Of a DNA stretch of 64,000 bases, positions 21,801 to 63,950 are shown piece after piece. The stretch is from Candidatus Saccharimonadota bacterium (GTDB taxonomy: Bacteria; Patescibacteriota; Saccharimonadia; Saccharimonadales; UBA4665): the NCBI GenBank assembly GCA_013289705.1, contig JABCZM010000003.1, positions 1-64,000 on the forward strand. Direction: 5' to 3'. Position 1 is the first letter of the stretch. Every line of letters starts with the position of its first letter. Made by a program: the position numbers and the translations under genes. The notes under the pieces are model-generated. The model had not been told where the DNA came from. It saw nothing but the letters and a program-made list of their open reading frames with translations, and searched no databases.

Positions 21801-24800
21801 TGTACTGCTCAATACCCCAACTTGCAAGAAACCATTGCTATTGAAGTTCGTATAAGTGGCGGCGGTCGGACTATAGAACGATTGCAGAGCACCGGTCTGC
21901 CCACTCCACCCCTGGATTGTCAAACCAGTTCCGGTCACAGCGGTAGGTGGCAAGCCAGCTATCGTGGCCGAACCAGTGTCCGTGTAGGTTACCGTGGTGC
22001 CATTGGTAATCGTCTTAAGGAGTAGGCTGCCACTCGTAAAGCCGTTTGTGGTATTACGATAGATCTTATACCCGGTAGCACCAGGTACCTGGGTCCAGTT
22101 AATAACACTCGTATTAGCGTTCATAGCCAAGGTGTTGCTGGCGATCGTTTCACCGGCCGCGTTAGTAGCGGTAGCGACGTAGTAGAAATTGGTACCAGTG
22201 GTACTCGGACTGGTGATAACCGGCCGGGCTAGGCCGTTAAAGGTGTTAGAGACACCGTTGGTGTAGGGATCTCCGTTGGCGTCGACACCAGAAAGGAAGG
22301 CACCGTTGACGTCTTGCAGCTGAAGAAGATCCGCCGATTGGCTGGCAGCGCCGCGAATGATAGTAGCGACAGACCCAGAGTTACCGGCAGTGACACACAA
22401 CGCCTGGACACCACCGCTACAGACAGCAGCTCCACCGCTTACCCTTAGACTATTCGCCGCTGTAGCCAAGCCAAACCGGTCAACAGTAAAGCTCGCGGCG
22501 TTGGTGGTACTGCGAACGATTAAGCCACTCCCTACTGTGCTAGAAGTCTGGGGCGTACCAGTAGCAGCCGTCAAGCCTGTATCGCTAAAGCTGGCTGCAC
22601 CGGTGGTAGTACCAATTAATAATGTGCTGCCCGAGAAGGCCGTACTGGTATCGCGGAAAATCTTGTAACTGGTAGCGCCCGGCGAAGCCGTCCACGTTAA
22701 GTTAACTGTCTGGTTACCAGAAGTTGGTGTAACCGAGACAGCACTGTTAGCGGTGGTTTCGCCGCCACTGTTAACCGCCGATACTTCGTAATAGTAAGTA
22801 GTGCCCACGGCTAGGCTACCGCCACTAGCCAAGACAGCACTGACGCCCGTAGGAACAAGCAACGCACCAAGAGTAACCGTAGTACCCTGGGTGTTCAGGT
22901 TACCGTTGGCATCAACTTTTACGAGCGTGTTAGCGTTACTATCTTGCAATTGCAACAGGTTAGCCGTCTGGGCCGTGAAACCTTGAATTACAACACCTGT
23001 CGTGGTAGCCGCCCCTGGTGCTACAGCTAGCTTAGCGTTGATGGCAGCCGCTAAGTCGGTGCTCGCCACGCTCAACCGTTGAGTGGCGTAGACGTCACCG
23101 GCAGCATTAACATCGAGCACCGTCAACGGCGTTGAGTTCCTAACCTGAAGAAGATCAGCCGTCTGGCTGGCCGCACCCTGGATAACAGCAGCAACACTGC
23201 TAGCGCTGGCACTTTGGACGTTGAAGTTAGCTGTTTGGGTGGTAGTGCTATTCTGAATATAGTTAGCCGAGCCACTGGCAGCTGCAAAGCCACAATTGAC
23301 ACTGGTTTGAATACAAATTGTACCCGATTCGTTAGGTAGTGAAATAGTCTGGTTGGCGGTCAGCGTGGTAGTATTCAGGGTAGCGCCAAAGCCGTCAGTG
23401 GTACCATCCGCAAAGGTCAGACTTCCCTGGTAAACAGTGCCACTTGTCGCAGGGACACCAAGCGTCAGTTGACCGGAAGAATTGAACTTGCTTTGGACGA
23501 TACCGTTGCTATCTTGCAGCTGGAAGAGGTCAGCAGTCTGGCCGGAGACGCCACGGATAGCTACGCCGACAGTACCAGTACCTTGGGTACCAACACTTAA
23601 ACGTCCACCGTAAGAACTAGTCGTACTAATAAACACCAGCCCGTTGCCCGAAGCGTTGACACCAAAGATAGGATTACCCGTAGAGCTGAGGGCAGTCAGC
23701 ACATTAGTACTCTGGCCGCTCCACCCCTGTAATGTTAGCCCCGTTCCTGTCACACTTGTTGGAGGCAATCCAGCTATAGTAGCCGAACCACTGTCAGTGT
23801 AGGTAACAGTGGTACCGTTGGTAATAGTGACCAGGAGTAAGCTACCACCCGTAAAGCTGTTGGTGGTATTACGGTAGATGTTGTAGCCCGTGGCACCAGG
23901 CACTTGGGTCCAGTTTATGACGCTGGTGTTGGCATTCATGGCCAGTACATTGCTGGGGATGGTTTCACCGGCGGCATTGGTGGCCGTTACGACGTAGTAG
24001 AAGTTAGTACCGGTGGTGCTGGGGCTGGTGATGACGGGGGTGGCAAGGCCAGCGAAGGTGCTATTGGTGCCATTCGTGTAGAAGCCACCGTTGGCGTTGA
24101 TGCCAGAGAGAACAGCACCATTGGTATTGCGGTACTGCAATAAGTCGGCCGTTTGGCCGCTAGCGCCTTGGATGTTGGCGGCAACGGTAGAAGTTAAGCT
24201 GTTCGTAACCGATAAGGCCGAGATACCAGCCCCAGCGCCGCTGTTGGCAGCGTTAATACCGGCGTTGCCGAATAATTGGCCAGCATTGGCAATTGATAAG
24301 CCCGTAGCACCGGTGGTCTGAAGTACCTTGAATAATATGTTACCAGATGGTGCCTGATTAGCATTTAAGGTCAGGATTGAACCAAGAGCCGCCCCCGTTG
24401 GCAGCGCCCCGCCCCCCACAGCACTAGTCTGATCGTTATAAACGTAGGTTGTGGCACTGCCGCCGGTAACACTGCCAATTTTGAGCTCGCTGCCACTAAC
24501 AGTACTTCGGTAGATGTTGTAGCTCGTTGCGCCAGGTGCGCCGTTAAAGGTAACTGTGTTGTAGTTTGTACTATTCAGCGTAGCGTTACCAGTTTCGGTT
24601 TGCTCTGCCGAAGCTATGGTCTCACCCTGAGTGTTCACGCTGCTTACTCGGTAGTAGTAATTAGTGGCACCACCCGTACCAACATTGCCGAGCACAATAC
24701 CTGTTGGGAACGTAAGCCCCGAAAGTGTGTTAGCCTGACCGTTGGTGTAAATACCACCCGTACCATTAAACCCAGACAAAACAAGACCATTACTACCCTG

Positions 24801-27620
24801 TAGCTGAACCAAATCAGCAGTCTGGCCAGTCTGTCCACGAACGATATTACCAATTGTTGTGGTCGCATCGGCTATAATCGATAATTCGGCTGTTGTTGCA
24901 GCCGCATTCAGTCCCAAGTGCCCAGCAGCCGTAAAGCCCGCCAAGCGAGCACCGCTGCTGTTTTGGAACTGCAATAATTCACCGGTTTGGCTGGTAGATT
25001 GCTCAATCACTGCCGTATTTGTGGTTGTTGTGCCGCTGTTCTGAACGTAAAAATTACCTGCCTGAGCGCTCGCACTCTGGTTTTTGATAAAGTCAGTACC
25101 GTTTGTAGCCTCAAAGGTGTTGTTACAACCAGCCAACTGATTGCTGGCATTCAAACAAACAGCCACATTGTTGCTGGCCGCGACGGGGTTACTGAGCACA
25201 ATCGTGCCCGCCAAGCTCGTCGTAATAGCACTTCGGCCAATGGTAACGGCGCTAGCGTTTGTAGTGCCAATTGTTATCGTGCCAGCCGTACCACCAGTAG
25301 CTACACCGCTGTCGATAATCACATTACCAGTGTTACCATTGGCAGCCGTACCGCTTGACACGGTAACGTTGCCCGAGTTAGCAGCACCAGTAGCATTACC
25401 AGAACGCACCGTAACGGTGGCACTGCTAAAGCCACTGTTGAGATCACCACTTTGGAACGTAGCGGCATTGCCATAGCTCTGGAAACTACCATTTTGGGAA
25501 CGGATGTAGCCGTTAGCGACAACGTTCCCGCTGCCAAATACCTGGAATTCTTGGATACCAGTGGTACTGAGCGCGTTGATGAAGAAACTGCTGCTACTTC
25601 CCTGAAGGATTAAGCCGTTTTGGGTGGCGGCCGAAGTAATTCGCTCCGTTGACTGAAAGTGCGTAAAGCTAGCACCAGAGAGCGATGGGCTAAAAACATT
25701 ACTGGTAGTAAGGCTCGTGTCGCTGGCAATGGCCACAACCGTTAACGTCTGGCCACTGGCGGTGATAGTGTCGCCCACATTCAGCTCGGTGGTAAAGTGT
25801 GTGCCCGTACCAGTTACGGTGGTAGTACCACTCGTGGTAAGGGTGCCCGTACCAGTCTTCGATGCGCTGCCACTGACATCAAGCGCCGCACCAGGCGTTG
25901 CCGTACCAACACCTACATCACCACCCTGTAAGATAGCCGCGATGCCAGTTGTCCCCGTAGCCGTAACGCTCAAAGCCGTGCCATTACTGGCTCCAGTTAG
26001 GGTGGTAGCGCCACTGGTTACCGTCAAGGTCTTGCCGCTAGCAACAGTGGTATTTTGGTTTAGGTTGACGCCACCCGTAGCATTGGTAGTGCCAACATTT
26101 AGCACTGTCGTACCAGATGGCGTATCAAGTAACGGCGTTAGCAAACTGGTGCCCGCGGTGCCGCTCCCGTCGATGTTAAAGTTGGCAGCAACCTGTTGGG
26201 TAAGCTGGTTTTTGATGAAGGTACTACCTCCAGCAGTTGCAAATCCACAAGCCGTGTCACCCTGGTAACAAACAACCGCCGCTGTGCCAGTGGTAGGTTT
26301 TGGCAGTGTCACCGTTAGATTGCCAGCGGCCCCTGTGAGCACATCACTTTCTAGCGTCAGGCTGATATTGTCGATAGTACCATCACCCAGCACAACCTTG
26401 CCTAAACTTGCACCACTGCCGGCAGTCACTTTACCCAAGCTCAACTGGTTACCCGTGCTATTAAACGCGCCGTTGATATTACCGCTGTTATCAACCAACT
26501 GGAACAGGTTACCCGTCTGGCTGGCAGCTTGATTGATCACTACTGTTGGCACCGTCGCACTGGCAGCCGCCTGCACAAAGATGCTGCTTTGGCTGGTGCT
26601 TGCACCTTGCACGCTCAGCAAACCACTGTTGGTTGTCGAGTTATTAATGCCCACAAAGCTGCCATTGTCAAAAATACTACTGCTGCCAATGCTGTTGCCA
26701 GCACCAGTGTCAAACTTCGCCACAAAGTTCTGGACGCCAGAACCCAAAATGCTACCACCAGTACCCGTACAGTTGGCTCTGCTCCTCAAACAAACCTGAT
26801 CGGTGGCATTGGTAGGATCGTCAGGAATCGTAATCGTTTGATCTTGAGACGTTGCACCCTGGAACACCAGCGTACTCTTGAAGCCGGTAGCCTGGTTCAC
26901 AAACGAAAGATTGCCGGCCGAAAAGGCATACGGCACCGCTGTTAATTTCAGCCGTGGCGTCATCTCCCCGTCAGCTGGCGTACAGCTGCCAAACGCACAG
27001 TTGGCCGTACCACGAACCGTCATGCCCACGTACAGATTTTGGTCCCAGTTGATGCTTGGAAACGGTGTAATGCTGCCAAGATTGACTGTCAAATAGCCGT
27101 TAACAACCCGCACCGCCTGGCTGTTACTGTTCAGGTAATCTTCAGTCCAGAGGCTGCTACCGCCAGTGCTCGTGTTGTACAGGTTAAATTCGACGTTGTA
27201 GTTACCATCAGGGGCAATAGCACCAGCCGCTGTCATCAGCTTAGCCTGGAAGTTGACCGTATCAGCAGTAGCCGCCTCAGTCTTCCGCGGCACAGCCACA
27301 ACCCCAACCACCAAGACGGCCAACGCAACCACCATCACCCCTCGAAAAACAAACTGCCCCCTCGCGCGCACGCGCGTACGCGCAAAAAGCCCACCAAAAA
27401 CAGATTGAAGGCCACCAGACTGTGGTGCAGTGTGGTCCGAATGTGAGCATCGGAACGCAGCGTACGCAAAGAGTACGTGAGCATCATCGGAGCGCAGCAG
27501 TCGGGCCGCAATGCGCCATAATCTGGTGGCCGCCCCCAGTATAACCACAAACACCCCTAAGAGTAACCTCTTAGGGGTGCGTGCAAACAGTTTCTGCTTT
27601 TCAGGTGTTTGTGTGGGCAT
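9819..27620 (-). CDS. Giant repetitive surface protein (about 5,930 aa)
   Basis: An uninterrupted frame encoding about 5,933 residues from ATG 27620 (a TTG at 27677 would add 19). A hydrophobic helix GVMVVALAVLVVGVVAV followed by TEAATAD looks like the export signal. Next is a domain of about 125 residues (NFQAKLMTAAGAIAPDG to TPRLKLTAVPYAF) of the kind that heads many long collar- or fibre-like bacterial surface proteins. The bulk is Ala/Gly/Thr/Ser-rich repeats, including units like IQGASSQTADLLQ, interleaved with about ten fibronectin-III-like modules (YYYRVSSVN...PGATSYNIYRST). Near the end lie a carbohydrate-binding-like jelly-roll domain (NGGAETGTTSW to LFIDNLSVV) and a cysteine-containing C-terminal domain. 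The true start is uncertain: bases 27410-27579 contain a hairpin element and a terminator-like hairpin inside the frame, so translation could begin nearer 27345. Likely an adhesin or fibre. Confidence 0.88.
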   Translation of the reverse strand: MPTQTPEKQKLFARTPKRLLLGVFVVILGAATRLWRIAARLLRSDDAHVLFAYAAFRCSHSDHTAPQSGGLQSVFGGLFARTRVRARGQFVFRGVMVVALAVLVVGVVAVPRKTEAATADTVNFQAKLMTAAGAIAPDGNYNVEFNLYNTSTGGSSLWTEDYLNSNSQAVRVVNGYLTVNLGSITPFPSINWDQNLYVGMTVRGTANCAFGSCTPADGEMTPRLKLTAVPYAFSAGNLSFVNQATGFKSTLVFQGATSQDQTITIPDDPTNATDQVCLRSRANCTGTGGSILGSGVQNFVAKFDTGAGNSIGSSSIFDNGSFVGINNSTTNSGLLSVQGASTSQSSIFVQAAASATVPTVVINQAASQTGNLFQLVDNSGNINGAFNSTGNQLSLGKVTAGSGASLGKVVLGDGTIDNISLTLESDVLTGAAGNLTVTLPKPTTGTAAVVCYQGDTACGFATAGGSTFIKNQLTQQVAANFNIDGSGTAGTSLLTPLLDTPSGTTVLNVGTTNATGGVNLNQNTTVASGKTLTVTSGATTLTGASNGTALSVTATGTTGIAAILQGGDVGVGTATPGAALDVSGSASKTGTGTLTTSGTTTVTGTGTHFTTELNVGDTITASGQTLTVVAIASDTSLTTSNVFSPSLSGASFTHFQSTERITSAATQNGLILQGSSSSFFINALSTTGIQEFQVFGSGNVVANGYIRSQNGSFQSYGNAATFQSGDLNSGFSSATVTVRSGNATGAANSGNVTVSSGTAANGNTGNVIIDSGVATGGTAGTITIGTTNASAVTIGRSAITTSLAGTIVLSNPVAASNNVAVCLNASNQLAGCNNTFEATNGTDFIKNQSASAQAGNFYVQNSGTTTTNTAVIEQSTSQTGELLQFQNSSGARLAGFTAAGHLGLNAAATTAELSIIADATTTIGNIVRGQTGQTADLVQLQGSNGLVLSGFNGTGGIYTNGQANTLSGLTFPTGIVLGNVGTGGATNYYYRVSSVNTQGETIASAEQTETGNATLNSTNYNTVTFNGAPGATSYNIYRSTVSGSELKIGSVTGGSATTYVYNDQTSAVGGGALPTGAALGSILTLNANQAPSGNILFKVLQTTGATGLSIANAGQLFGNAGINAANSGAGAGISALSVTNSLTSTVAANIQGASGQTADLLQYRNTNGAVLSGINANGGFYTNGTNSTFAGLATPVITSPSTTGTNFYYVVTATNAAGETIPSNVLAMNANTSVINWTQVPGATGYNIYRNTTNSFTGGSLLLVTITNGTTVTYTDSGSATIAGLPPTSVTGTGLTLQGWSGQSTNVLTALSSTGNPIFGVNASGNGLVFISTTSSYGGRLSVGTQGTGTVGVAIRGVSGQTADLFQLQDSNGIVQSKFNSSGQLTLGVPATSGTVYQGSLTFADGTTDGFGATLNTTTLTANQTISLPNESGTICIQTSVNCGFAAASGSANYIQNSTTTQTANFNVQSASASSVAAVIQGAASQTADLLQVRNSTPLTVLDVNAAGDVYATQRLSVASTDLAAAINAKLAVAPGAATTTGVVIQGFTAQTANLLQLQDSNANTLVKVDANGNLNTQGTTVTLGALLVPTGVSAVLASGGSLAVGTTYYYEVSAVNSGGETTANSAVSVTPTSGNQTVNLTWTASPGATSYKIFRDTSTAFSGSTLLIGTTTGAASFSDTGLTAATGTPQTSSTVGSGLIVRSTTNAASFTVDRFGLATAANSLRVSGGAAVCSGGVQALCVTAGNSGSVATIIRGAASQSADLLQLQDVNGAFLSGVDANGDPYTNGVSNTFNGLARPVITSPSTTGTNFYYVATATNAAGETIASNTLAMNANTSVINWTQVPGATGYKIYRNTTNGFTSGSLLLKTITNGTTVTYTDTGSATIAGLPPTAVTGTGLTIQGWSGQTGALQSFYSPTAATYTNFNSNGFLQVGVLSSTALVGGEIGVRSTTGGRDLVLAANASQISNIAEIQNASGDVLSKFTATGQLVLGTIGAVAGAAIQGSVGFGDGTTDGFAATLNTSTLTANQTISLPNASGTICLQSSAACGFAATTGGTGYIQNGTTTQTANFNIQSASASGVAATIQGAAGQTANLLQLQDSNGNILSGINAGGALFTNGTANVLNGLVYPSGVTLATVGTAGSTTYYYRVSSVGAQGETIASTETSIATGNTTLSGTNYNTVTFNSASGASSYNIYRSTVSGNELKIGSVTSTNAATYTYNDQTSAAGSGALPTGSVNSVLTINGGSGAPSAGTLVVNNASGNPLVQVGINGGSTTYIKGSLSLANTYNTGSPALQLVNSGASTVAAYIQGASSQTADLLQYKNSNSVGVVLSGVNANGGLYTNGVSSSFNALAVPTLSLASGGGTAYYYEITAVNAAGQTIASNEVSTNGTSGVISWPVSPGATSYQVYRGTAAGAENVYTSTLAVSIPCPAGATTCNWGVDASGGFFTASGTPPTNTAGSGLKIQGWSGQTGNLLQFKDGSANILGGFNAAGNLYYGNSGFTTTLNTTTLTANQTIALPNASGTVCLQASSSCGFEATNGTDFIQNQSASAQTANLNIQSASGTSVAAVIQGAAGGSADVLQIYNLSGTKSVNVSSAGRAFFSNGLNVGTSVAGSGSGYGALLSGNTGGSGSAVIVGVRGIAGQTGDLIQNQDANGNVLSGFNANGGIYANGAANTLFGLSSPATVSLSTSGTAGSTTYAYRVSALNSQGETIPATEVSIATGNATLSGSNFVTVTWSPVAGATSYKVYGRTASGELFMATLTGDGRAGNYTFNDTGTITPSGALPTGSVFGATLTVGGSNGASATVFNVQSGGGNTLFSVGLGNQTTIGGGLVLKNANNTAFSALQLQNQLGTTVAAYIQGAASQSADLLQYTDAHGAVLSGVTSNGGFYTNGVSSSFNALAVPAFTTTSTGTSYYYEITATNAAGETVGSTSLGMANNTSALTWNQVPGATGYKIYRNTSNSFTSGSLLRTTLTSGSTVSFTDTGAITSAGLPPTSVTGTGLTLQSWSGQTGDILSANAQSGARILTVGNGSYVRGFVSVGTSANLSARFNVSTAGSATVGEIIQGIAGQTGDLLELQNSSSNVLSSFSASGQLTLGNNTVSGTTQGSINFADGAADGFAATISTTTLTANQTISLPNESGTICLQTSVNCGFAAASGSANYIQNQSAGNQTANFNIVSASSTTVAAVIQAATGSSVDVLDIRNAAGFNNAVFTGGQFNVARISVGNGGNGSNISSIGSTARLEVLSNGSGTAGGGIVVRNTGGGTADLYQNQDNNVNLLSGFNASGALYTNGTTNTINGLIFPATVTLGTVGTAGSTTYYYRVSSVNAAGETKAGTEVSIATGNATLSGTNYDTVTFSSVPGAASYNIYRSTVSGSELKIGSVTSTGSTGNYVYNDQTSAAGSGALPAGTVATPLLAIGGNGSANSNPSQLLLSVAGVGGNVTYVDSNGFLGSKSISLLNSVGNTQSLLKVTNNAPTVVAAYLQGASTQSADLLQNKDANGAVLSGITNNGGLYTSGVSNTFGNLATPVITSPSTTGTNFYYIVTATNAAGETIASNVLALNTNTSIINWTQVPGATGYKIYRNTTSTFGSGLLLLATITNGTTVTYTDTGSAATAGLPPTAPTGTGITIQGWAGQTSALESLTSSAGSGIALQTQVAGDTAPRLSISANGQLNFGSGSGSSDVQISRTGSSTLTVWGHLSVGAQNAAGTQLYVAPSAAGGIGQIIRGQSGQTADLFQLQNSSGDVLAKHTANGQLVLGTIGAVTGSSVAGSIGFGDGTTDGFVTSITSAVQSNNVTLTIPADANSTDTLCLATLNNCLAVGTPGGDLTGSYPAPTIAKLQGKTLTISTTPSTGSVLQYNGSAFVDGFITNTNLQAGTFGNITGTGALAAGSITSGFGTISTGNNITTTATVQGNVVNATGAGEALELGGANINTAGTLSNVAYLNQANTFSAAGNIFSGAGTALTVNNNATISGTGTIGALNVTNGATVGNGLTVTAGASSFGGNVSIAGTNTLTVNTGATTLGGQLNANGGIVTNNANVNAGTGTITSGNINGQAISSAANFTGTVTIQGSGGLTLGIAGPTGTTGQLTFANAANTNTVSLATAAQGNAVVLSIPTDTNTTDTVCLQTLNNCAPINGISGTGTTNYVARFTASNTIGNGILYDDGTFAGVNATTQISNGTLSVLAAASKVGLSVQGSGGDIADFVANGGGTPVASIDANGSLTVTGGNFTKTSVANASAVSIAQNNAATSGTVANNGLNIALTGAATSGANTNSGINFSDVTVNSGNSFVGLNFSASNNYASILSVGANNIISGAGLLQNNAIDSTLTYSNLQKVGALNAGSITAFGTIATGNTISGTVLTGTTAVATPAIRPTADSTAAIEIQNAAGTTNIFSVDTTNNRVGINNVAPGYSLDVTGDINTTANLRTSGTIRLDNSGNLSNIGSITSAGTAQINVSGTAATSIGNTTGTLALQGNASSTIGASNGTFATTIDFANPTANVTLHVPTLAAGSYTICTDSGNCNGAGSTLQTGYNNSAGGSTPEITLDAAHTSVDIQAYSGQTDDLLDLRAYTATGLGAIQFGVSPAGVATVAGGLTVQAGGVNVTGTSSFTGNVGVTGSSTLTGATTITGATNINNSGSATTTIGNASAGAIGLQSAGAINTTAGADSTISTSASHTLAIISKDFNVTAAGGLSLGSTSNTGIISVSNNSATTTLNVATSATPTTAVIVGTDTTNTSTDKLLSLQSGSTPTAKFTVDAAGNVVALGGATAGTTGQFQVNGSNGNVSTTGTLTYADSGAAATATVCKDGSGLLTACSTTGTGATFVQGGNLFGAAAELGTNDANALNFRTNNTDRLTLNATGSNFTFLQAATINTNGALALGIDTGGAAALNIGNANTNALTIGNTSASFTAEANATVNLFNGATAHTVQLATGAATQTVTIGSTNSSSSLALQGGAYSVNVGNTGVGIKATAPTTGSVDLFFGAGSNRLVNINQEAAATTGDNLTIQAGKSGSGAVNGGNLILQAGATGGSGVTGSVIVRANGSDTTGVFQIQDSSSSPILTVDSSTRNINYTPNNTGTLGITSDLTNGARSTYALNITQANNATNNNSVGLLQLSNADTASTAALESITQVGGGTGLSIATGITTGTGISISSSFSSGKGINLTNASAITSGNGIVLNGSNSSGLTGFTGSQILVNPTRTNTATSGTVTDSGNFLNLTRSNTQNGAGGTYAITGALANLQSTCAQTAGTCTDSANIINLNQQYASASGAVLNASNSGTGSVINLTQSGALGAGNAVINVNDTNSTSDKLLNLQKSASSVFTVNALGVTTLAGGQTADITTSGATTLKLDTGAGAAITLGGTNATQINIGHGTIATAITGNVGITNTNATTTLNVSSNTTPTTALIVGTDTTNTSTDKLLSLQSGSTPTAKFTVDAAGNVVALGSATISGTAQAQNFDAVAAGTLGLGNLGGTTGTATNILLGNNAATTKIQSTSTTIQASAGTAVQSTTDNSTAFTVQNSAGASLISIDSTNTAGGLNIATNGGAETGTTSWSALGSATVTQDTTGGEYASGTAGIKAATTGTNQGARYNLTLTSGSTYNVSFSVKSSSGSPTLSVFYSTDGATSAAACAAGSYDSASIASKFVKYTCKFTATSSASAYVIIAQTDSTTRSLFIDNLSVVAQGTTTQNTGVVKVGGAASQGLTLFQLDAAAGTPFTGANASLAGAMYFDTTQGKMQCYDGTVWGACGAAPNSNITLTPEYAGAVLNGTGIGTLTSDFCANQASVLVVPATGNICNSGDARNFYKWTSVQPSSQGYSVYVTYKLPSTFKQFVLGSTSLTGRVDNTTNASVGYSIFKSTGGAVSACGSAIAVTSTTNTWQTVSPTSPNDLSTCGFTANNYVIFKIDVTASNSASAFIENLNFNYTNQ
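16740..24750 (-). repeat. Tandem fibronectin-III/QTADLLQ repeat array inside the giant gene
   Basis: Ten related modules are visible in the translation, each with a tyrosine-rich strand (YYYRVSS, FYYVVTA or YYYEITA), a GET motif and PGATxYxIYR, separated by blocks containing IQGASxQTADLLQ and NGGxYTNG. Two alternating subtypes occur: one with SGSELKIGSV, the other with NTTNSFTxGSLL. Unit size is several hundred to over a thousand bases, so recombination and copy-number change are likely. Confidence 0.8.
27410..27531. repeat. Dispersed hairpin element, copy A
   Basis: A 122-bp element closed by a perfect 10-bp stem (GGCCACCAGA/TCTGGTGGCC). Directly inside it, a second helix of about 17 bp pairs GGTGCAGTGTGGTCCGA with TCGGGCCGCAATGCGCC using several wobble pairs. 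The centre holds two copies of a GTGAGCATCxxxGGAnCGCAG motif around a CGTAC/GTACG hairpin. It lies inside the 5' reading frame of the giant surface gene. Copies B and C share the interior but not the outer stem sequence. Confidence 0.75.
27552..27579 (-). terminator. Perfect 12-bp hairpin inside the giant gene's 5' frame
   Basis: CACCCCTAAGAG and CTCTTAGGGGTG pair perfectly around a 4-nt loop. On the minus strand it is followed by TTTGTGGTTAT, a weak U-rich tail. It lies 40 bp after ATG 27620. It may be an attenuator or the end of a short leader RNA rather than ordinary coding sequence. Confidence 0.45.
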
Positions 27621-27677
27621 TAAGCTTTTGATTTTAAATTTTATTAAGGCAGATACGTTTGTGGCATCTGTCTGCAA

Positions 27678-50992: not shown

Positions 50993-52054
50993 TTACTTCT
51001 TCGCTTTTAAGCTTAAAGCAATTTTGCGGTTTTCGGTGTCTATATCGAGAACTTTAAACTCTTTTTTCTCATTGAGCTGGAAGATTTTTTCTGGGTCGAT
51101 GGCTTCATCGTCACCCATTTCCGATACGTGGACCAAAGCTTCAACGCTCGGGCTAATCTGTACAAATGCGCCAAATGGCGTAATACGAGTAATTTTGCCT
51201 TCAACAACGTCGCCCTTTGAAAAGGCTTTGACTTCGCCGAGCCATGGATCTTCAAGCATTTGCTTCAAGCTTAAGCTCAAACGGTCTTTGTCGATAGCGA
51301 TGATCTTTGCTTTGACGGTGTCGCCAACTTTAACGTAGTTGCGTGGGTTGTCAACGCGTTCCCAGCTGATTTCACTGATGTGAATCAGGCCTTCGATACC
51401 ATCAACGTTCACGAATGCACCAAAGTCGATTACGCCAGTTACGACGCCTTCAACTTCATCACCAACTTTGAGTTCGCTGAAGCGAGCTTGCATGTCGTCT
51501 TTGACAGCTTCTTTTTCGCTAAAAATCAGCTTGTTATCTTTGCGGCTAACATCAAGAATGCGTGCCCGCAAAGTTTGGCCAACTAAGGTGTTCAACTTCT
51601 GTAAGATTTCGTCTTTATCGGCACCAGATACCCGTGGGTAGTGACCAGCAGCCAGCTGCGAAACTGGGAGGAACCCGCGGATGCCTTCTAATTCTACAAG
51701 CAAACCACCTCTGTTAGCGTCATAAGGAACAATATCGACAATCTCGTTGGCGTCGAATGCGCGTTGCAATTCGTCCCAACCGCGGTCTTTAACGGCACGC
51801 TTCATGCTGAGCAAGGCGTAGCCTTCGTCCATTTCTGGATCAATCACGCTGACGGTAATGGTCTGGCCGACTTCGAGAACCTGGCCGTGGCCAATCTCGC
51901 GGCGCATAACAATACCCGTTCCGCGCGGGCCCAAATCGACCCACATTTCGTGTTTTTTAATAGAGGAAACAACTCCCTCGACCACGTCTCCGGTGGCTAG
52001 TTCTTTGACGTCGCTGCCTGCTAGCAGTTCGTCCATCGTGATAGTACTTGGCAT
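50993..52054 (-). CDS. rpsA: 30S ribosomal protein S1 (bS1), four S1 domains
   Basis: A 353-aa bS1 with four tandem S1 RNA-binding domains. The first two are diverged (GDVVEGVVSSIKKHEMWVDLG; the second starts near residue 105). The last two are canonical (VGDEVEGVVTGVIDFGAFVNVDG and KGDVVEGKITRITPFGAFVQIS). The six-domain proteobacterial form is longer; four domains are usual for Gram-positive-like S1. It has a strong AAAGGAGG ribosome site and a leader of about 115 nt. It heads the rpsA-infB transcript. Confidence 0.93.
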   Translation of the reverse strand: MPSTITMDELLAGSDVKELATGDVVEGVVSSIKKHEMWVDLGPRGTGIVMRREIGHGQVLEVGQTITVSVIDPEMDEGYALLSMKRAVKDRGWDELQRAFDANEIVDIVPYDANRGGLLVELEGIRGFLPVSQLAAGHYPRVSGADKDEILQKLNTLVGQTLRARILDVSRKDNKLIFSEKEAVKDDMQARFSELKVGDEVEGVVTGVIDFGAFVNVDGIEGLIHISEISWERVDNPRNYVKVGDTVKAKIIAIDKDRLSLSLKQMLEDPWLGEVKAFSKGDVVEGKITRITPFGAFVQISPSVEALVHVSEMGDDEAIDPEKIFQLNEKKEFKVLDIDTENRKIALSLKAKK

Positions 52055-52176
52055 AATGTATGCCTCCTTTATCTAGTCTTGGTTCTTCAGGCCAAGATGG
52101 TGTATTTCTTCAGATGGTAGTGGTGCTAAAACTTCTTTCGGAGCCCAGCCAATTACGTTTCTGTAAGATTACCTAT

Positions 52177-52205
52177 ATTGTACCCCATTTTTCTCTGTAG
52201 GTAAA
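52177..52205 (-). promoter_or_regulatory. Promoter of rpsA-infB
   Basis: Minus-strand -35 TTTACC (52200-52205), 17-bp spacer, -10 TACAAT (52177-52182). Confidence 0.6.
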
Positions 52206-52290
52206 GTCAGTGCTCTTGCATTATCCTTAATAAGTGGTATTTTAGAGTATTAAGCGTACTGTAACACTTGTAAGTTCGGAGTTTTTAACG

Positions 52291-53835
52291 ATGGCTACAG
52301 ATCATAGCCCAGTAGTTGGACCGTTGGTCGCCACAGAACAGCTACCACCCGTGTACCTGATTTCGGGTGAACTTCCTGGTACCGGCGCAACAACACTTGC
52401 CAAAAATATTTGTGCCGTCCTGGCTAGCGGTGGCGTTGAACCTTTTACCTACAGCTTCGGTGAAGCCGTCAAGCAAGAACTTGGCTCAGCCAATGAAGCC
52501 GACCTTGCAAAAATTGGCGAAAAAGTGCCAGACCCAAAAGAGCGCGACCGCCAAATCTACCAAAACCTGCCGACCGACCGACCAGCTGTCGTTGAAGGCA
52601 AATACGCCACAGCCATGGGGCCAGGACACATCGATTCCGGGCGTCCAGTTGTTAGTATCAATCTCAGCTCGGCCGATTTATTTAGTGCCAAACGAATTCT
52701 GGAGCGTGAAGGAACAAGGCTAGAGCAATTACTTGTCGAAGGAGATCCAGACGGCAGGTTACTCGGCCACCTTACGCATATCCGTCAGCGGAAAGCTCGG
52801 GAGGATGCTATGCGCGCCACCCTACCCGATCGGAGTACAACATACCCAAACGTAACTTCTCACTCGTTTGATACCAGTCAATTTCTCGGGCAAGAAATCT
52901 CGGCGAAGATATTGCTCGGTGAAGACTTTAAGGGATTTGTGCCCAACTGGGAACTTAGTAGGCTCAAAGACGTGCATGGCAAGCTTGCCATGATCAGAGC
53001 GCAGCTGAATGGCAATATTCATCCAAGTGATGCCGCTCATTTTAGCCACCAGTTTGAATCGATCGGCTATCATATTGGCGTGCTGGGGAACATTTACCAT
53101 GCCGGCGGCATTAACAAGGTACGGGACGAGCTGCGAAAGTCTATTACTGACTGTTGGTTTGGCCTAACCATAAAGCGAATTCCCCGCTTCTTTACAACCG
53201 AAGGCCCAGTACCAGGCGAAAAAAGCCTAACTCTAGATACAGAATCCCAAGGCTGGACACCAGAATATTACAAAATTGCCGAGGCCTGGCCGATCCTTAG
53301 TTCTATACTCAACAAAAAGGTCGTACTCGACCCATTTGCGGGCGCCGGCACGTTCCTCAACCTTTTGGTAGCACGCGGTATTGTTAAGGGAGCAATCTAT
53401 AGTGATATCGCCTATGCTGGCGGCCAGCCAATTAACGGAAAAGGCCAGCTCTACGAACCACGCCTTAACATGCAAGCCGCGCAGCTACTTTTTGACGATC
53501 TGCCGTCGTGGTACAAGCCAAACTTTAGTATCGTAAAAGGCCTAGAATCGGCCGATGCCCATAAGCTACCCCTTAAAGATAACTCCGTTGATTACGTTTG
53601 TACTGATCCGCCATACGACAAGAATTGCCCTGGTGGACTCGGGGTAACATTTGGAACTCTTGACGAGTCTTTGCGGGTAGCAAAGCGTGGAGCAGTTATG
53701 ATGGTCCCACTTGACTGGGTAAAGCAGCTCAAAGCTCACGGGGGCTACGAAATTAAGACACTGACTGGTGATATTTCACGCGGCAATTCAGGTTTCCCGA
53801 TTTGCTATGTTAAGATCACCAAACGTAAACAATAA
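52291..53835 (+). CDS. P-loop kinase-like / DPPY methyltransferase fusion
   Basis: A 514-aa two-part protein. Residues 20-205 look like a small-molecule-kinase P-loop domain: VYLISGELPGTGATTLAKNI resembles the cytidylate/adenylate kinase loop but has Ala where the Walker lysine belongs. Residues 340-510 are a Rossmann methyltransferase: motif I VVLDPFAGAGTFLNLL binds AdoMet, and motif IV DYVCTDPPYD is the catalytic DPPY of amino-methyltransferases acting on adenine, cytosine or guanine N2 in DNA or RNA. No target-recognition domain of restriction type is obvious. It has its own CGGAG ribosome site and converges with the mazG gene, whose stop codon is 3 bp away. Substrate unknown. Confidence 0.75.
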   Translation: MATDHSPVVGPLVATEQLPPVYLISGELPGTGATTLAKNICAVLASGGVEPFTYSFGEAVKQELGSANEADLAKIGEKVPDPKERDRQIYQNLPTDRPAVVEGKYATAMGPGHIDSGRPVVSINLSSADLFSAKRILEREGTRLEQLLVEGDPDGRLLGHLTHIRQRKAREDAMRATLPDRSTTYPNVTSHSFDTSQFLGQEISAKILLGEDFKGFVPNWELSRLKDVHGKLAMIRAQLNGNIHPSDAAHFSHQFESIGYHIGVLGNIYHAGGINKVRDELRKSITDCWFGLTIKRIPRFFTTEGPVPGEKSLTLDTESQGWTPEYYKIAEAWPILSSILNKKVVLDPFAGAGTFLNLLVARGIVKGAIYSDIAYAGGQPINGKGQLYEPRLNMQAAQLLFDDLPSWYKPNFSIVKGLESADAHKLPLKDNSVDYVCTDPPYDKNCPGGLGVTFGTLDESLRVAKRGAVMMVPLDWVKQLKAHGGYEIKTLTGDISRGNSGFPICYVKITKRKQ

Positions 53836-53838
53836 ACA

Positions 53839-54165
53839 CTATTCCCAGCTACGGGTTTCGTTAATTAGGTTCTTTTTCCGATAGACGCTTTCAAGGTCGA
53901 CACCGAAGCGGTTTGCGAGCTCAAGCAGGTAGTTTAGTACATCGGCGAATTCTTCTTCGAGATTGTCCTTGTCTAGTGATTTAGTTTCACCCTTAAAACC
54001 CGTGTACTTACGAATAGCCTTGGCAAGCTCACCAATTTCTTCATTCAAAAGTAGGAATACTTCCGGCACCGAATTCTTGTCCCAGCCGTTTGCCCTGCAT
54101 ACAACATCTAGGTGTGTTTGTATCTGCGGTAGCGTTGGCTCTGGGGAAAGTGGCGGTGTTTTCAT
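53839..54165 (-). CDS. MazG-like nucleotide pyrophosphohydrolase
   Basis: A 108-aa all-helical MazG-family protein that hydrolyses (d)NTPs to monophosphates. The metal-binding pattern is visible as EEIGELAKAIRK followed by EEEFADVLNYLLELANRFG. It is short, a single MazG domain as in many house-cleaning enzymes. An extended -10 box TGCTACAGT ends 6 nt before ATG 54165, giving a leaderless message. It is divergent from the 54231 gene. Confidence 0.88.
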   Translation of the reverse strand: MKTPPLSPEPTLPQIQTHLDVVCRANGWDKNSVPEVFLLLNEEIGELAKAIRKYTGFKGETKSLDKDNLEEEFADVLNYLLELANRFGVDLESVYRKKNLINETRSWE

Positions 54166-54171
54166 CCTAAG

Positions 54172-54180
54172 ACTGTAGCA
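54172..54180 (-). promoter_or_regulatory. Extended -10 of the mazG gene
   Basis: Minus-strand TGCTACAGT, with the -10 hexamer at 54172-54177 and 6 nt to the start codon. Confidence 0.5.
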
Positions 54181-54185
54181 TAACT

Positions 54186-54214
54186 TTGACGAAATTCATT
54201 ATAGTGGTTAAAAT
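54186..54214 (+). promoter_or_regulatory. Promoter of the 54231 gene
   Basis: -35 TTGACG (54186-54191), 17-bp spacer, -10 TAAAAT (54209-54214), 16 nt before ATG 54231. It decides the start of that gene because it lies inside the longer open frame. Confidence 0.65.
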
Positions 54215-54230
54215 AACATATAACCCGCTC

Positions 54231-54653
54231 ATGAACCCTGAAGAAGCCAACGGTTTTAGATCTTTTGATGTAGCCGGCGACATGCACGTCGCTGCTCTTG
54301 CGGACGTGGATTTTGATAATCTAAGTGAAGCGGAACTTGTGCTACTCGACAGAATGACCGCACCAGCCGAGCAAGCCGAACAGCCAACTAACCCAAACGA
54401 ACTGCTGATTGCAGATATCGGAAAACTTGCTACTGCGGAGACGGCAAAGGCGGTGCAAAAGGCTGCCATTCGCCGCGACGGCCGTAAGCCAAAGGCCGCG
54501 CTAGAGGCAAAAGTCGAAAATCCGACACCCAAGGGCGGTCGGGGTAATTTCCATAAACACCTGCGCACCCAGCTCACCCGATCTGGCAAAATAAATGCCA
54601 AAGAAGCCCTGCCAACCGAACAAAAACGCCTGCGAAAACGCAAACGTAAATAA
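54231..54653 (+). CDS. Hypothetical protein with basic C-terminus
   Basis: A 140-aa protein. The first 80 residues are acidic and partly helical (MNPEEANGFRSFDVAGDMHVAALADVDFDNLSEAELVLLDRMT has no recognised motif as a whole). The last 60 become strongly basic (KGGRGNFHKHLRTQLTRSGK and ending KRLRKRKRK), suggesting nucleic-acid binding. Family unknown. ATG 54231 is preferred because a good promoter overlaps the extra upstream codons. Copy a of the 40-bp intergenic motif follows it. Confidence 0.6.
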   Translation: MNPEEANGFRSFDVAGDMHVAALADVDFDNLSEAELVLLDRMTAPAEQAEQPTNPNELLIADIGKLATAETAKAVQKAAIRRDGRKPKAALEAKVENPTPKGGRGNFHKHLRTQLTRSGKINAKEALPTEQKRLRKRKRK

Positions 54654-54685
54654 TAACGAAACACGAAGGCGTCGCTGGAGAACCT

Positions 54686-54720
54686 AAGGTCTCACCTTTA
54701 CATCTGTTAATTTATGTCAT
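54686..54720 (-). repeat. Intergenic motif with mini-hairpin, copy a
   Basis: Read on the minus strand: ATGACATAAATTAACAGATGT followed by AAAGGT-GAG-ACCTT, a 5-bp stem with a 3-nt loop. The AACAGATGT core is shared with copies b, c and d. Confidence 0.6.
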
Positions 54721-54754
54721 TCAGGTTTCTGGATGATTTGGATAGATGAGGTGG

Positions 54755-54760
54755 TAGAAT
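54755..54760 (+). promoter_or_regulatory. -10 box of the ROK kinase gene
   Basis: TGGTAGAAT (extended -10, hexamer 54755-54760) ends 7 nt before ATG 54768; no -35 seen. Confidence 0.45.
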
Positions 54761-54767
54761 AAATGAT

Positions 54768-55589
54768 ATGTACGCAGGAGTTGATATTGGAGGAACGAAG
54801 ACGCTGGTAGCAGTGCTGGATGATGATGGTGTCATCCAAGAGTCACGCAAGTTCCCCACACCACATAATTATCAGCATTTTATCCTGGAACTGCAGCACG
54901 CTGTTGCGTTTCTAGCTACAAAAGATTTTAAAGCTGCCGGCGTGGCAATCCCTGGCAGGCTGGACCGCAAACATGGCAGAGCACTCAAACTTGGTAATTT
55001 ACCGTGGTCAAACGTGCCCGTGCAGGCCGATTGCGAAAAGATATTTCACTGCCCTGTCGTGATAGAAAACGACGCAAATCTGGCAGCGCTCTCCGAAGCC
55101 ATGGTCCACAAAAAATACCACAACGTGTTGTACGTAACCATTAGCACGGGAATCGGCACGGGCTTTATATCCGATAAAACCATTGTCCCGTCACTGGTCG
55201 ATGGCGAAGGCGGCCATATGATACTGCCCCACAACGGCAAGCTAGAGGAATGGGAAAGCTTTGCGTCTGGGCGAGCAATTTTTGAGCATTATGGCAAAAA
55301 AGCGGCCAATATTACCGATCAAGGGGATTGGAAAACCATTGCTCGCAACTTGGCGTTGGGGTTATTTGAGCATATCGCACTACTGCAGCCAGATGTCATT
55401 ATCATTGGCGGCAGCGTGGGAACCTATTTTGAAAAATACGGCAAATATCTGAAGGACGAACTCGACAAATATGCCGTGCCGGTAGTGCCAATCCCCCCTG
55501 TTGTAGCAGCCAAAAGACCGGAGGTGGCTGTTATTTATGGCTGTTACGATCTAGCAAGACAGAAATTCAATCATGGACAAGCTGCTTAG
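54768..55589 (+). CDS. ROK-family sugar kinase
   Basis: A 273-aa ROK kinase, probably phosphorylating glucose or another hexose. It has phosphate-1 GVDIGGTKTLVAVL, the sugar-binding VIENDANLAALSEA with the catalytic Asp, and phosphate-2 VTISTGIGTGFI. The EGGHMIL histidine segment is followed by LEEWESFASGRA, where family members normally have the CxCGxxGCxE zinc motif; here all the zinc cysteines are absent. The adenosine motif VIIIGGSVG is present. The stop overlaps the next gene by 17 bp. Substrate specificity is inferred from family only. Confidence 0.9.
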   Translation: MYAGVDIGGTKTLVAVLDDDGVIQESRKFPTPHNYQHFILELQHAVAFLATKDFKAAGVAIPGRLDRKHGRALKLGNLPWSNVPVQADCEKIFHCPVVIENDANLAALSEAMVHKKYHNVLYVTISTGIGTGFISDKTIVPSLVDGEGGHMILPHNGKLEEWESFASGRAIFEHYGKKAANITDQGDWKTIARNLALGLFEHIALLQPDVIIIGGSVGTYFEKYGKYLKDELDKYAVPVVPIPPVVAAKRPEVAVIYGCYDLARQKFNHGQAA

Positions 55590-59684: not shown

Positions 59685-59977
59685 GCACATGAGACACCCG
59701 CTTTCGCGGGTTTCTCATCGCACCTTACCGAGTGAATCGGCATTTCGCTTGCAGCGAAACCGGTGCTACTCTTCCCAGCCAGTAGTAAACTGAAGCTGAG
59801 CCGAGGTTATTGGTGTCCATGAGTTTTGTTACAAATTCACGGATGAAATTTTGAAAATACAATTTATTCTTTGAAACAAACGAATATTTAATGGTGATAA
59901 ACACCAATAACTAGTCAATTGCTACCTTATATCTTATCTCCAACTAGTAAACCAGCCGGAGAGGCAGATAAAAGGTC
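59685..59977 (-). other. 23S-5S spacer
   Basis: No tRNA found. It contains a GAGA-ACCCGC/GCGGGT-TCTC hairpin (about 59691-59717) and the 3' arm of the 23S processing stem (59903-59922). Confidence 0.7.
59903..59922 (-). promoter_or_regulatory. 3' arm of 23S processing stem
   Basis: ACCAATAACTAGTCAATTGC is perfectly complementary to 63951-63970 across the 23S gene; the 20-bp duplex is the expected RNase III-type substrate. Confidence 0.75.
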
Positions 59978-60257
59978 ATAAAAAGTCGATGGGACTATTA
60001 GTACGCTTCGGCTACATATGTTGCCATACTTCCACCTTGCGCCTATCAAACTGATCGTCTTTCAGTGTCCTCATAGGGAAATCTAATCTTGAGACTAGTT
60101 TCGCGCTTAATATGCTTTCAGCGCTTATCTATTCCGCACATAGCTACCCAACAATGCCCTTGGTAGAACAATTGGTACACCAGCGGTGCGTTCATTCCGG
60201 TCCTCTCGTACTAGGAACAAACTCTCTCAAATTTCCTGACGTCCACAGCGGATATAA

Positions 60258-60291
<34 letters not shown>

Positions 60292-60409
60292 ACGTACCTC
60301 TTTAACCGGCGAACAGCCGGACCCTTGGAAGGTGCTCCCCCTCCAGGATGAGATGAGCCGACATCGAGGTGCCAAACAGCGCCGTCTATGTGAACTATTG
60401 GGCGCTATA

Positions 60410-60440
<31 letters not shown>

Positions 60441-60848
60441 AAAGCGCTGCCGATACCACATTCTTGTACAAATGTACTGACAGCGGAAAACTTACTCCGA
60501 CTTTCGTCCCTGCTTGAGTTGTAGCTCTCACAGTCAAGCTGGCTTTTGCGTATATACTATCGATTCGATTTCCATCCGAACCTAGCCAACCTTTGAACGC
60601 CTCCGATACTCTTTAGGAGGCAACCGCCCCAGTTAAACTACCCATCAGACACGGTCCCGGAACCAGAAGATAGTAACGAGGGGCTCAAAACCTTTAGGTT
60701 TTGTCTCATTACCATTTTGTGGTCCCGGTAAGAATAAGATCGTATTAAGGGAGGTATTTCACTGGCGACTCCACTTTCGCTAGCGCAAAAGCTTCAAAGT
60801 CTCCCTCCTATGCTACACATAATACGACCCGATCCAATGTCAAACTGT

Positions 60849-60880
<32 letters not shown>

Positions 60881-60976
60881 GCGGACAGACGGCATCTTTA
60901 CCGTCAATGCACTTTCACCGAGCTCTTCGCTGAGACAGTACCCATATCATTACGCCATTCGTGCGGGTCAGAACTT

Positions 60977-61681
60977 CAATTTAGTTAGCTATTCGTTTCC
61001 GAATAGATCAGACTATCTTTTCATCTCGCCAGAATTCTTAGGAGTTCCTCTTTGGTATTGCGTCGAAGACCAGATACATTCATAAGATAACTCTCATTAA
61101 TGATTTCCGTAAGATGCTCAACATTTAAGTGTTTTGACTGATTAATCAGTAAGCACGTCCGTGTGAATATCTCAAAATCCTGCGCTTTAGTTGTTCGTAG
61201 TGGATATTCTTGAAAGTGCGGGATGATTCGTGTAATTAGATCACCGATCGAACGTACTTCATATTTGTACATCTGATCGTGTTTACTAAAACGAATTGCA
61301 CCACACCCGAAATAGGCATGAATGTCTTTCAGTACCTGAAGGCTGCGTTTATTCTGTGCGACACTGAAACTTGGTCTTACTTCTATGCCTGTTTTCAGTT
61401 TTGCACGTCGGTTAAAACTAACCGAAAAACAACCTTCTCCATCTACAAATCCTGTTATATACCAAGAAAAATCCGTAAATTCCTTTTTTTGACGAGAGCC
61501 AACGTATTGTACATCTTGTTTCATATGTACCTCTCCTTTCGGATCAGTCGTTACGGCTTCCATTCATTTACATGAATGATTGCCACGGGATTGTCATTGT
61601 GCCAAATATGACACTTTAGATTTCCCCGTTATTAGTTGGTTTACTCTAAGCAGATCACTCTGCTTTTCAGGCAAATTCATT
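60977..61681 (-). other. Group I intron in 23S rRNA
   Basis: 705 bp interrupting the conserved TTGTCAGGT^AAGTTCTGACC near E. coli position 1950. The 5' exon ends in U and the intron ends in G, the group I hallmarks. P1 forms between exon TCAGGT and intron GCCTGA with a U-G pair at the splice site, and P10 between intron GAATTT and 3' exon AAGTTC. A GCAGA/TCTGC P2 hairpin follows. It encodes a homing endonuclease on the same strand. Confidence 0.9.
61021..61524 (-). CDS. LAGLIDADG homing endonuclease of the 23S intron
   Basis: A 167-aa single-motif LAGLIDADG endonuclease (WYITGFVDGEGCFSVSF), expected to work as a homodimer that cuts intronless 23S genes. After the motif come RPSFSVAQNKRSLQVLKDIHAYFG and DLITRIIPHFQEYPL, typical of intron-encoded members of the family. 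ATG 61524 has an AAGGAGAGG ribosome site 6 nt upstream; the frame continues 13 codons upstream into intron structure. The acidic catalytic residue of the motif is intact, so it is probably active. Confidence 0.92.
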   Translation of the reverse strand: MKQDVQYVGSRQKKEFTDFSWYITGFVDGEGCFSVSFNRRAKLKTGIEVRPSFSVAQNKRSLQVLKDIHAYFGCGAIRFSKHDQMYKYEVRSIGDLITRIIPHFQEYPLRTTKAQDFEIFTRTCLLINQSKHLNVEHLTEIINESYLMNVSGLRRNTKEELLRILAR

Positions 61682-61873
61682 ACCTGACAAGGAATTTCGC
61701 TACCTTAGGACGGTTATAGTTACCGCCGCCGTTCACTGGGGCTTCAGTTCGCACCGTGAAGCACTCCCCTTAACCTTCCAGCACCGGGCAGGCGTCAGCC
61801 CGTATACATCCACTTTCGTGTTAGCACAGACCTATGTTTTTGGTAAACAGTTGCATGGGTTCTTTAGCTGCGG

Positions 61874-62060
61874 CCCCCTCACTCTATCAACCACGATAAA
61901 GTCAGTAATTGGGGTCAGCTTTCTAATTGATATGTCTCAAAAGCTTGGTAGACATACATACGTAAGAAGTTAAAAACTTACGTAGTAATCATTGATTGTT
62001 TTCAAAAAGAAAACTGGCTACAATTGTTTGCTTCCTACTCTGATTAACAGAGTGAGGGGG
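61874..62060 (-). other. Expansion of 23S helix 63
   Basis: CCCCCTCACTCT (61874-61885) and AGAGTGAGGGGG (62049-62060) pair and enclose about 160 nt, where common bacteria have about 40 in all. The insert is AT-rich and contains TACGTAAG/CTTACGTA. Confidence 0.75.
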
Positions 62061-63243
62061 CAGGCCTTATTCCGAAGTTACGGCCGCTTGTTTGCCGAGT
62101 TCCTTAGCGAAGAATCACTCGTACACCTTGGTCTTCTCGACCTGAGCACCTGTGTCGGTTTGCGGTACGGATGATGTTGTACACACGATAGATTGCTTTT
62201 CTAGTCAGTACTTTCATTGGAATTCAACCAAAAGGTCGTTTCATTCGTGCCCATTTCTGACACTTAGACGGATATAACCATGAACCCGCTCCAACTAATA
62301 TCCCGCGCACATCTAACAAATACAACACCAGTACGGGAATATTAACCCGTTGTCCATCGCCTACGCTACGCGCCTCGGCTTAGGACCGACTAACCCTGGG
62401 ACGATTACCGTGGCCCAGGAAACCTTGCTCTTTCGGTGGGCAGGATTCTCACCTGCCTTATGGTTACTCATTCCAGCATTCTCACTTGATACCGCTCCAC
62501 CGAACCTCACAGTTCGACTTCTATGCAATATCAACGCTCCTCTACCACGCCACAATAAATTGTGACATCCATATCTTCGGTACTATGCTTAGCCCCGTTA
62601 CATTTTCCGCGCGAGATCTCTTGACTAGTGAGCTGTTACGCACTCTTTAAATGAATGGCTGCTTCTAAGCCAACATCCTAGTTGTTTAAGAAATCTCACC
62701 TCGTTTCCCACTTAGCATAGATTTGGGGACCTTAGATGATGGTCTGGGCTGTTTCCCTTTTGAGCGACGAGCTTAGCCCCGCCGTTCTAACTGCAACGAT
62801 ACCACAGATAGTATTCGTAGTTTGTCAAGGGTGGGTAATCGTAAGACCCCCAGTCCGAAACAGAGCTCTACCCCTATCTGCTACCACGTCACGCTAGCCC
62901 TAAAGCTATTTCGAGGAGAACCAGCTATCTCCGAGTTCGATTAGCATTTCACCACTAACCACAGGTCATCCGGGCGTTTTGCAACACACTACGGTTCGGC
63001 CCTCCACGCACTTTTACATGCGCTTCAGCCTGCCCATGGTTAGGTCACTCGGTTTCGGGTCTATTTATTATTACTTATCGGCCTATTCAGCCTCGCTTTC
63101 ACTGTGCCTCCGTCATATGACTTAGGCTTGCAATAACAAATAACTCGCTGGATCGTTCTACAAAAAGCACGCTGTCACAGAATAAATCTGCTCCAACTCC
63201 TTGTACGCACACAATTTCAGGTTCTATTTCACTCCCCTTCCGG

Positions 63244-63284
<41 letters not shown>

Positions 63285-63950
63285 ATCATACAATATATTT
63301 AGCCTTGGAGGGTGGACCCTCCAGCTTCAGTCAGGATTTCACGTGCCCCGACCTACTCGACACATAAATGATAAAGTTTGCGGCACTTTGCATACCCGGC
63401 TTTCACGGTCTCTGGCCAGTCTTTCCAAACTGTTCTGCTCGCATCGCAATTTTCTAAAACTTTATGCAGGTTGGTGTTAGCGCCTGCTTCCAATCCCGAC
63501 ATCTCCACGAGTGGAGATTTCAGGACTGGTTATTTATATGTCACAACCCTCTTATAACATTCGTCTAACAACTTATTTACCCTTTCATCTATCCTCGAGA
63601 GGATAAATTGCCAGGCAAAAGTCATAAAAGTTTGGGCTCTTCCGCGTTCGCTCGCCACTACTTACGGAATCGTTGTTTACTTTCTATTCCTCGGGGTACT
63701 AAGATGTTTCAGTTCCCCCGGTTACCACATCATCGCCCTATATATTCAGGCAAGTGTCATATGACATTACTCATATGGGGTTTCCCCATTCGGATATCTC
63801 CGGTTCAAAGTTTGATTAGCAACTCCCCGGAGCTTTTCGCAGCTCTCTACGTCCTTCTTCGGTATTGTATGTCAAGGCATCCTTTGTGTGCGCTTGAGTA
63901 ACTTTTTACTAATGTAATGAGGCAAACCCGAAGGTTCATCTCAAAACAGT

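Follow-up and report, generated by a model that had tools for sequence, protein, structure and literature searches.

The described proteins that come closest to the one reported here are the archaeal-type (type 2) (d)CMP kinases gathered under the profile TIGR02173, the Mad2 protein of MADS and the type II DNA amino-methyltransferases, and the RNA N2-guanine methyltransferases RsmD and Trm-G10 (TIGR01177). The gene beside it resembles the MazG-like pyrophosphohydrolases, such as DCTPP1. Several archaea have type 2 CMP kinases in which a threonine stands at the place of the Walker lysine. MazG-like enzymes yield nucleoside monophosphates (NMPs). The human MazG-like enzyme DCTPP1 prefers 5-methyl-dCTP over dCTP (PMC4491611), and a link between methylation and a MazG-like enzyme is therefore a reasonable one.

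Here we describe a gene that joins a CMP-kinase-like domain to an amino-methyltransferase in a single protein. It lies in a window of 64,000 nucleotides, the whole stretch of DNA analysed, from the Candidatus Saccharimonadota genome G000 (1.24 Mb, 13 contigs). A search of the open-access literature found no account of a fusion of this kind, in agreement with the preliminary description, which knew of no standard enzyme with such a pairing. The pairing is real, conserved and rare, and as far as the literature search reached it appears to be undescribed.

The fusion protein and its two halves

The fusion gene (52291-53835, + strand; 514 amino acids) is intact, with a single uninterrupted frame, an ATG start and a GGAG about 11 nt upstream. 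Read from the letters alone, it had been taken for a nucleotide-kinase-like domain without its lysine joined to a DPPY amino-methyltransferase; the reading frame and the relatives bear this out, and the motifs GELPGTGATT (alanine for lysine), DPFAGAGT and DPPYD are all in place. The protein begins with the CMP-kinase-like domain (residues 17-215; 52339-52935), continues through a helical linker (residues 216-300; 52936-53190) for which the full-protein AF2 model predicts three long helices, at low confidence in the linker, and ends with the class I amino-methyltransferase domain (residues 285-514; 53143-53835), whose beginning overlaps with the last of these helices. Two full-length relatives, P0002 (L002/L015; 36% identity) and P0005 (L005/L012; 34% identity), retain both halves and their motifs.

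The N-terminal half is, as judged by profile comparison and a predicted structure, a diverged archaeal-type (type 2) (d)CMP-kinase-like domain. Pfam assigns only the C-terminal half of the fusion protein, the N-terminal half of P0002 matches AAA_17 and AAA_18 below their cut-offs, and a PDB sequence search with the kinase half gave no direct match. Among the NCBIfam profiles, TIGR02173 (cyt_kin_arch) is the sole match listed for the isolated domain even at E 10, and it covers residues 7-129 of 199 at 13.1 bits (E 0.073), far short of the curated cut-off of 102.1 bits. Because this match is weak though broad, we collected the archaeal-type CMP kinases of Patescibacteria and compared profiles. 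Hhalign related the fusion domain to 33 of these sequences at 98.0% and E 2e-13, and to smaller sets at 95.5% and E 5e-9 (three sequences) and at 97.4% and E 1e-11 (27 sequences), each E-value belonging to one pairwise profile comparison and not to a database search.

Structure prediction points the same way. The AF2 model of the isolated domain, built from an alignment of two sequences, reached a pLDDT of 75.7 and a pTM of 0.75; in the full-length model, also built from two sequences, the kinase half is usable and the methyltransferase half too poor to use. Foldseek matched the domain model to archaeal adenylate kinase 1kht (E 1.6e-6), to shikimate kinases and to O-phosphoseryl-tRNA kinase (PSTK), all with a probability of 1.00 and with moderate TM-scores of 0.5-0.6, so that the fold class is secure, while for the exact subfamily we rely on the comparison of profiles. 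Together, hhalign, AF2 and Foldseek give an NMP-kinase fold with profile homology to the type 2 (d)CMP kinases. The domain shares with these kinases its topology, its length, the GExx[KR] and AKR motifs and the DT after the last strand; it differs in that it scores far under the family cut-off and is joined to a methyltransferase.

The C-terminal half is, from its motifs and profile matches, a class I amino-methyltransferase, in which motifs I and IV are intact and the methyltransferase core is recognised. The SAM-binding motif I, DPFAGAG (53329-53349; DPFAGAGT, residues 347-354), precedes the catalytic motif IV, DPPY (53605-53616; DPPYD, residues 439-443); motif I is kept in all five members, reading DTFAGSG in one, and DPP[YF] occurs in five of five. 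PF01170 scores 22.8 bits on this half against a cut-off of 22.3, with weaker matches to other amino-methyltransferases, and the PDB match is the RsmD-type 2ift (E 7e-6). PADLOC reports mad2 and MTase_II, Mad2 being the best PADLOC match in the four members scanned (1.2e-10 for P0006), and the other top profiles are TIGR01177, RsmD and DNA methyltransferase PHROGs. Motif order and best profiles point to an exocyclic-amino methyltransferase, while the profiles match DNA and RNA enzymes about equally.

Each of these likenesses has its limits. With Mad2 and the type II DNA amino-methyltransferases the protein shares the core from motif I to motif IV, with DPFAGSG and DPPY, but its N-terminal half is a different one, and no MADS gene cluster accompanies it: the open reading frames of the locus were read, and none of the neighbours infB, rpsA, the MazG-like gene and the ROK gene is another MADS gene. 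With RsmD and Trm-G10 it shares the motif order, an LPl.d.s.D.v.tDPPY segment and a PF01170 match just over the cut-off, whereas its TIGR01177 score (25.1 bits against 316.55) and its TIGR00095 score fall far under theirs, and the CMP-kinase-like domain stands where Trm-G10 has an RNA-binding N-terminal domain.

The P-loop and the nucleotide-binding residues

The P-loop, GELPGTGATT (residues 26-35; 52366-52395, + strand), has Ala33 at the place of the Walker lysine. The loops of the three fusions read SGELPGTGATT, SAEMPGCGSTS and SAQGAGSGSTT, all without lysine. The proposal to survey homologues for this residue, made at the outset, has thus been answered by both full-length relatives, and with the lysine missing in three fusions of three a sequencing error at the loop is ruled out. 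The preliminary description had also seen one extra residue in the loop. The alignment shows it (SGELPGTGATT against SGR-PGSGKST), in all three fusions, and yet there is an equally good reading, in which the strand would be shifted by one residue and the first glycine of Walker A replaced by Glu or Gln. Either way the loop departs from that of the TIGR02173 kinases.

The absence of lysine, on the other hand, proved to be no peculiarity of the fusion protein. We read the P-loops of the 33 archaeal-type CMP kinases of Patescibacteria (L071-L100 among the loci) and found the lysine in 12 of them; in the remaining 21 its place is taken by Ser (11), Arg (4), Thr (3), Ala (2) or Ile (1). Since its absence is ordinary in these enzymes, a loss of phosphoryl transfer cannot be deduced from it, and the missing lysine is, on this sequence tally, no proof of a dead kinase. 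Proteins of about 240 amino acids with the P-loop FAGLTAAGKTTH and a CMP-kinase-like core also occur in several relatives (L043, L045, L068).

More can be learned from the rest of the site. The NMP-side residues of type 2 (d)CMP kinases, GExx[KR], [VI][ED]G[KR] and AKR, are present in the fusion. VVEGKYAT (52588-52611, + strand) corresponds to the v[ie][de][GS][RK] motif of CMP kinases (v[ie][de]GR in TIGR02173), and the pattern [VI]-[ED]-G-K-x-A-T recurs in three fusions of three. The glycine after strand 2 and the arginine of AKR, each found in 33 of 33 CMP kinases, are kept, and GExx[KR] still has its basic residue. The LID is another matter: the family's RY..YG.D is missing and the motif R...[KR]Y..Y is degraded in all three fusions, the first arginine being kept and the tyrosine gone, and the second basic residue, which all 33 kinases have, lies off its column, with a basic residue about one place later in three of three. 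The CMP side is thus better preserved than the ATP and LID side, a pattern which, in three sequences, favours retained nucleotide binding and makes phosphoryl transfer doubtful. The suggestion that the first domain binds substrate rather than transferring a phosphoryl group therefore stands in part: binding is plausible, given that the CMP side of the site has been preserved better than the LID, and the loss of transfer does not follow from the missing lysine.

Distribution and genomic setting

Searches across the phylum Patescibacteria found the fusion in 3 of about 870 distinct genomes, and none of 59 other genomes of near relatives has the gene. An origin in a phage or plasmid was considered and rejected, as collections of phages, plasmids and viral contigs gave no match. 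Stand-alone copies of the kinase-like domain were absent from the 287 genomes of the phylum that were searched. The methyltransferase does occur by itself, in P0006 (L006/L014) and P0007 (L008/L013), so that members of the family can do without the CMP-kinase-like domain. P0005 and P0007 belong to the same genus and share the same flanks (aspS and a hydrolase gene), no remnant of a kinase-like half was seen upstream of P0007, and it appears that the half was either lost in the P0007 lineage or gained in the P0005 lineage.

In the window, the fusion and a MazG-like gene occupy an accessory insert (52055-54767) between rpsA (50993-52054, - strand) and a ROK gene (54768-55589, + strand). In 23 of 25 relatives, 136-317 bp separate the starts of rpsA and the ROK gene, against 2714 bp in the window; longer spacings, with different open reading frames inside, are found in a genome of the same genus (747 bp) and in another (1836 bp). 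This pattern indicates that the junction takes accessory genes and that the fusion and its MazG-like neighbour are such an insert. Other open reading frames occupy it in G001 and G002 (L131, L132), so that accessory genes have a hot spot here. The GC content of the fusion, 0.50 against 0.49, is not foreign, and base composition does not mark a recent insertion. That no restriction gene is near, as first noted, holds: the neighbours are infB, rpsA, the MazG-like gene, the ROK gene and a metalloprotease-like gene.

The MazG-like NTP pyrophosphohydrolase gene (53839-54165, - strand) lies tail to tail with the fusion across a gap of 3 bp. It carries a MazG domain (PF03819, 5.2e-8; 33.5 bits against a cut-off of 22) with the EExxE...ExxD residues of the MazG-like and DCTPP1 enzymes, from which it differs in that, in two lineages, it neighbours the fusion. 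At L002/L015 the fusion and an orthologous MazG-like gene behind it share a strand and overlap by 4 bp, while the L012 fusion has none adjoining, so that the two genes adjoin in two of three cases, in differing orientations. Between the two fusion-linked MazG-like proteins identity is 61%, and neither exceeds 47% when compared with the MazG-like proteins of other relatives. About a quarter of relatives have a MazG-like gene at all, and no kinase-like domain was found beside the MazG genes of the other relatives. Adjacency in two orientations, together with this excess similarity, suggests that the fusion and the MazG-like gene travelled as a pair. A 16-nt direct repeat (53820-53835 and 54641-54656; 15/16 identical) flanks the MazG-like gene; one copy lies at the 3' end of the fusion and the other at that of the open reading frame 54186-54653, both encode KRK, and the resemblance may be due to chance.

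Elsewhere in the window, the open reading frame 9819-27677 (- strand) encodes 5952 amino acids of highly repetitive, Gly/Thr/Ser-rich sequence and would be a giant surface-type protein. The 23S rRNA gene (59977-63908, - strand) spans 3932 bp against a model of 2925 positions and contains an open reading frame (61021-61563) with the look of a LAGLIDADG endonuclease; with these two features, the gene reads like one that carries an intron or intervening sequence.

Proposed function and its alternatives

From the architecture, the homologies and the linkage we infer, at about even confidence, that the protein would be a solitary accessory base-modification enzyme. Its C-terminal domain would methylate, with SAM as the donor, the exocyclic amino group of a nucleic-acid base, DNA being a somewhat more likely substrate than RNA. 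The CMP-kinase-like domain would bind a pyrimidine nucleotide or nucleotide end and thereby position or gate the methyltransferase. The MazG-like partner would probably hydrolyse NTPs, modified ones among them, to NMPs, so that methylated nucleotides arising from turnover would be kept out of the triphosphate pool.

The main rival, possible though we hold it to be unlikely, is a bifunctional protein whose N-terminal domain is an active, lysine-independent CMP/dCMP kinase, as the lysine-less archaeal-type CMP kinases presumably are. Those 21 of 33 kinases keep the rest of the site, and no CMP kinase scores over the Pfam or NCBIfam cut-off elsewhere in G000; an archaeal-type CMP kinase over the cut-off is likewise missing, however, in nearly all of its fusion-less relatives. 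Very few genomes carry the fusion, which most relatives can do without, the LID is degraded with its basic residue one place off in all three fusions, and the domain scores 13 on TIGR02173, whose cut-off is 102. That the protein is a solitary DNA methyltransferase of defence or anti-restriction, its N-terminal domain sensing the nucleotide metabolism of phages, seems rather improbable: the PADLOC matches and the accessory insert fit it, but the likeness to Mad2 is confined to the common methyltransferase core and no other recognised defence gene adjoins the fusion.

We give a similarly low probability to methylation of free nucleotides, such as CMP or dCMP bound in the kinase-like domain, which would yield a modified nucleotide in place of a modified polymer. 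The fold is one that binds mononucleotides and MazG-like enzymes supply NMPs, yet methyltransferase-only relatives exist and DPPY amino-methyltransferases are known for nucleic-acid targets. The related nucleotide-pool route, in which the MazG-like enzyme would make an NMP, the CMP-kinase-like domain would hold it, and the methyltransferase would methylate it or sense it before modifying DNA or RNA, is speculative and also unlikely. That the open reading frame arose by chimeric assembly, or from two genes joined through a frameshift, would fit its absence from all near relatives; this idea is already refuted by the same architecture in two other genomes (L002/L015 and L005) at 34-36% identity, and its probability is negligible.

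The lysine-less P-loops that are widespread among the archaeal-type CMP kinases of Patescibacteria are a caution against equating the lack of a Walker lysine with a dead kinase. Were the nucleotide-pool route true, a domain of nucleotide metabolism would have been turned into the substrate module of a methyltransferase. Under our preferred reading of a base-modification enzyme, if the CMP-kinase-like half does recognise a nucleotide for the methyltransferase, this would be a new way for a base-modifying enzyme to choose its target.
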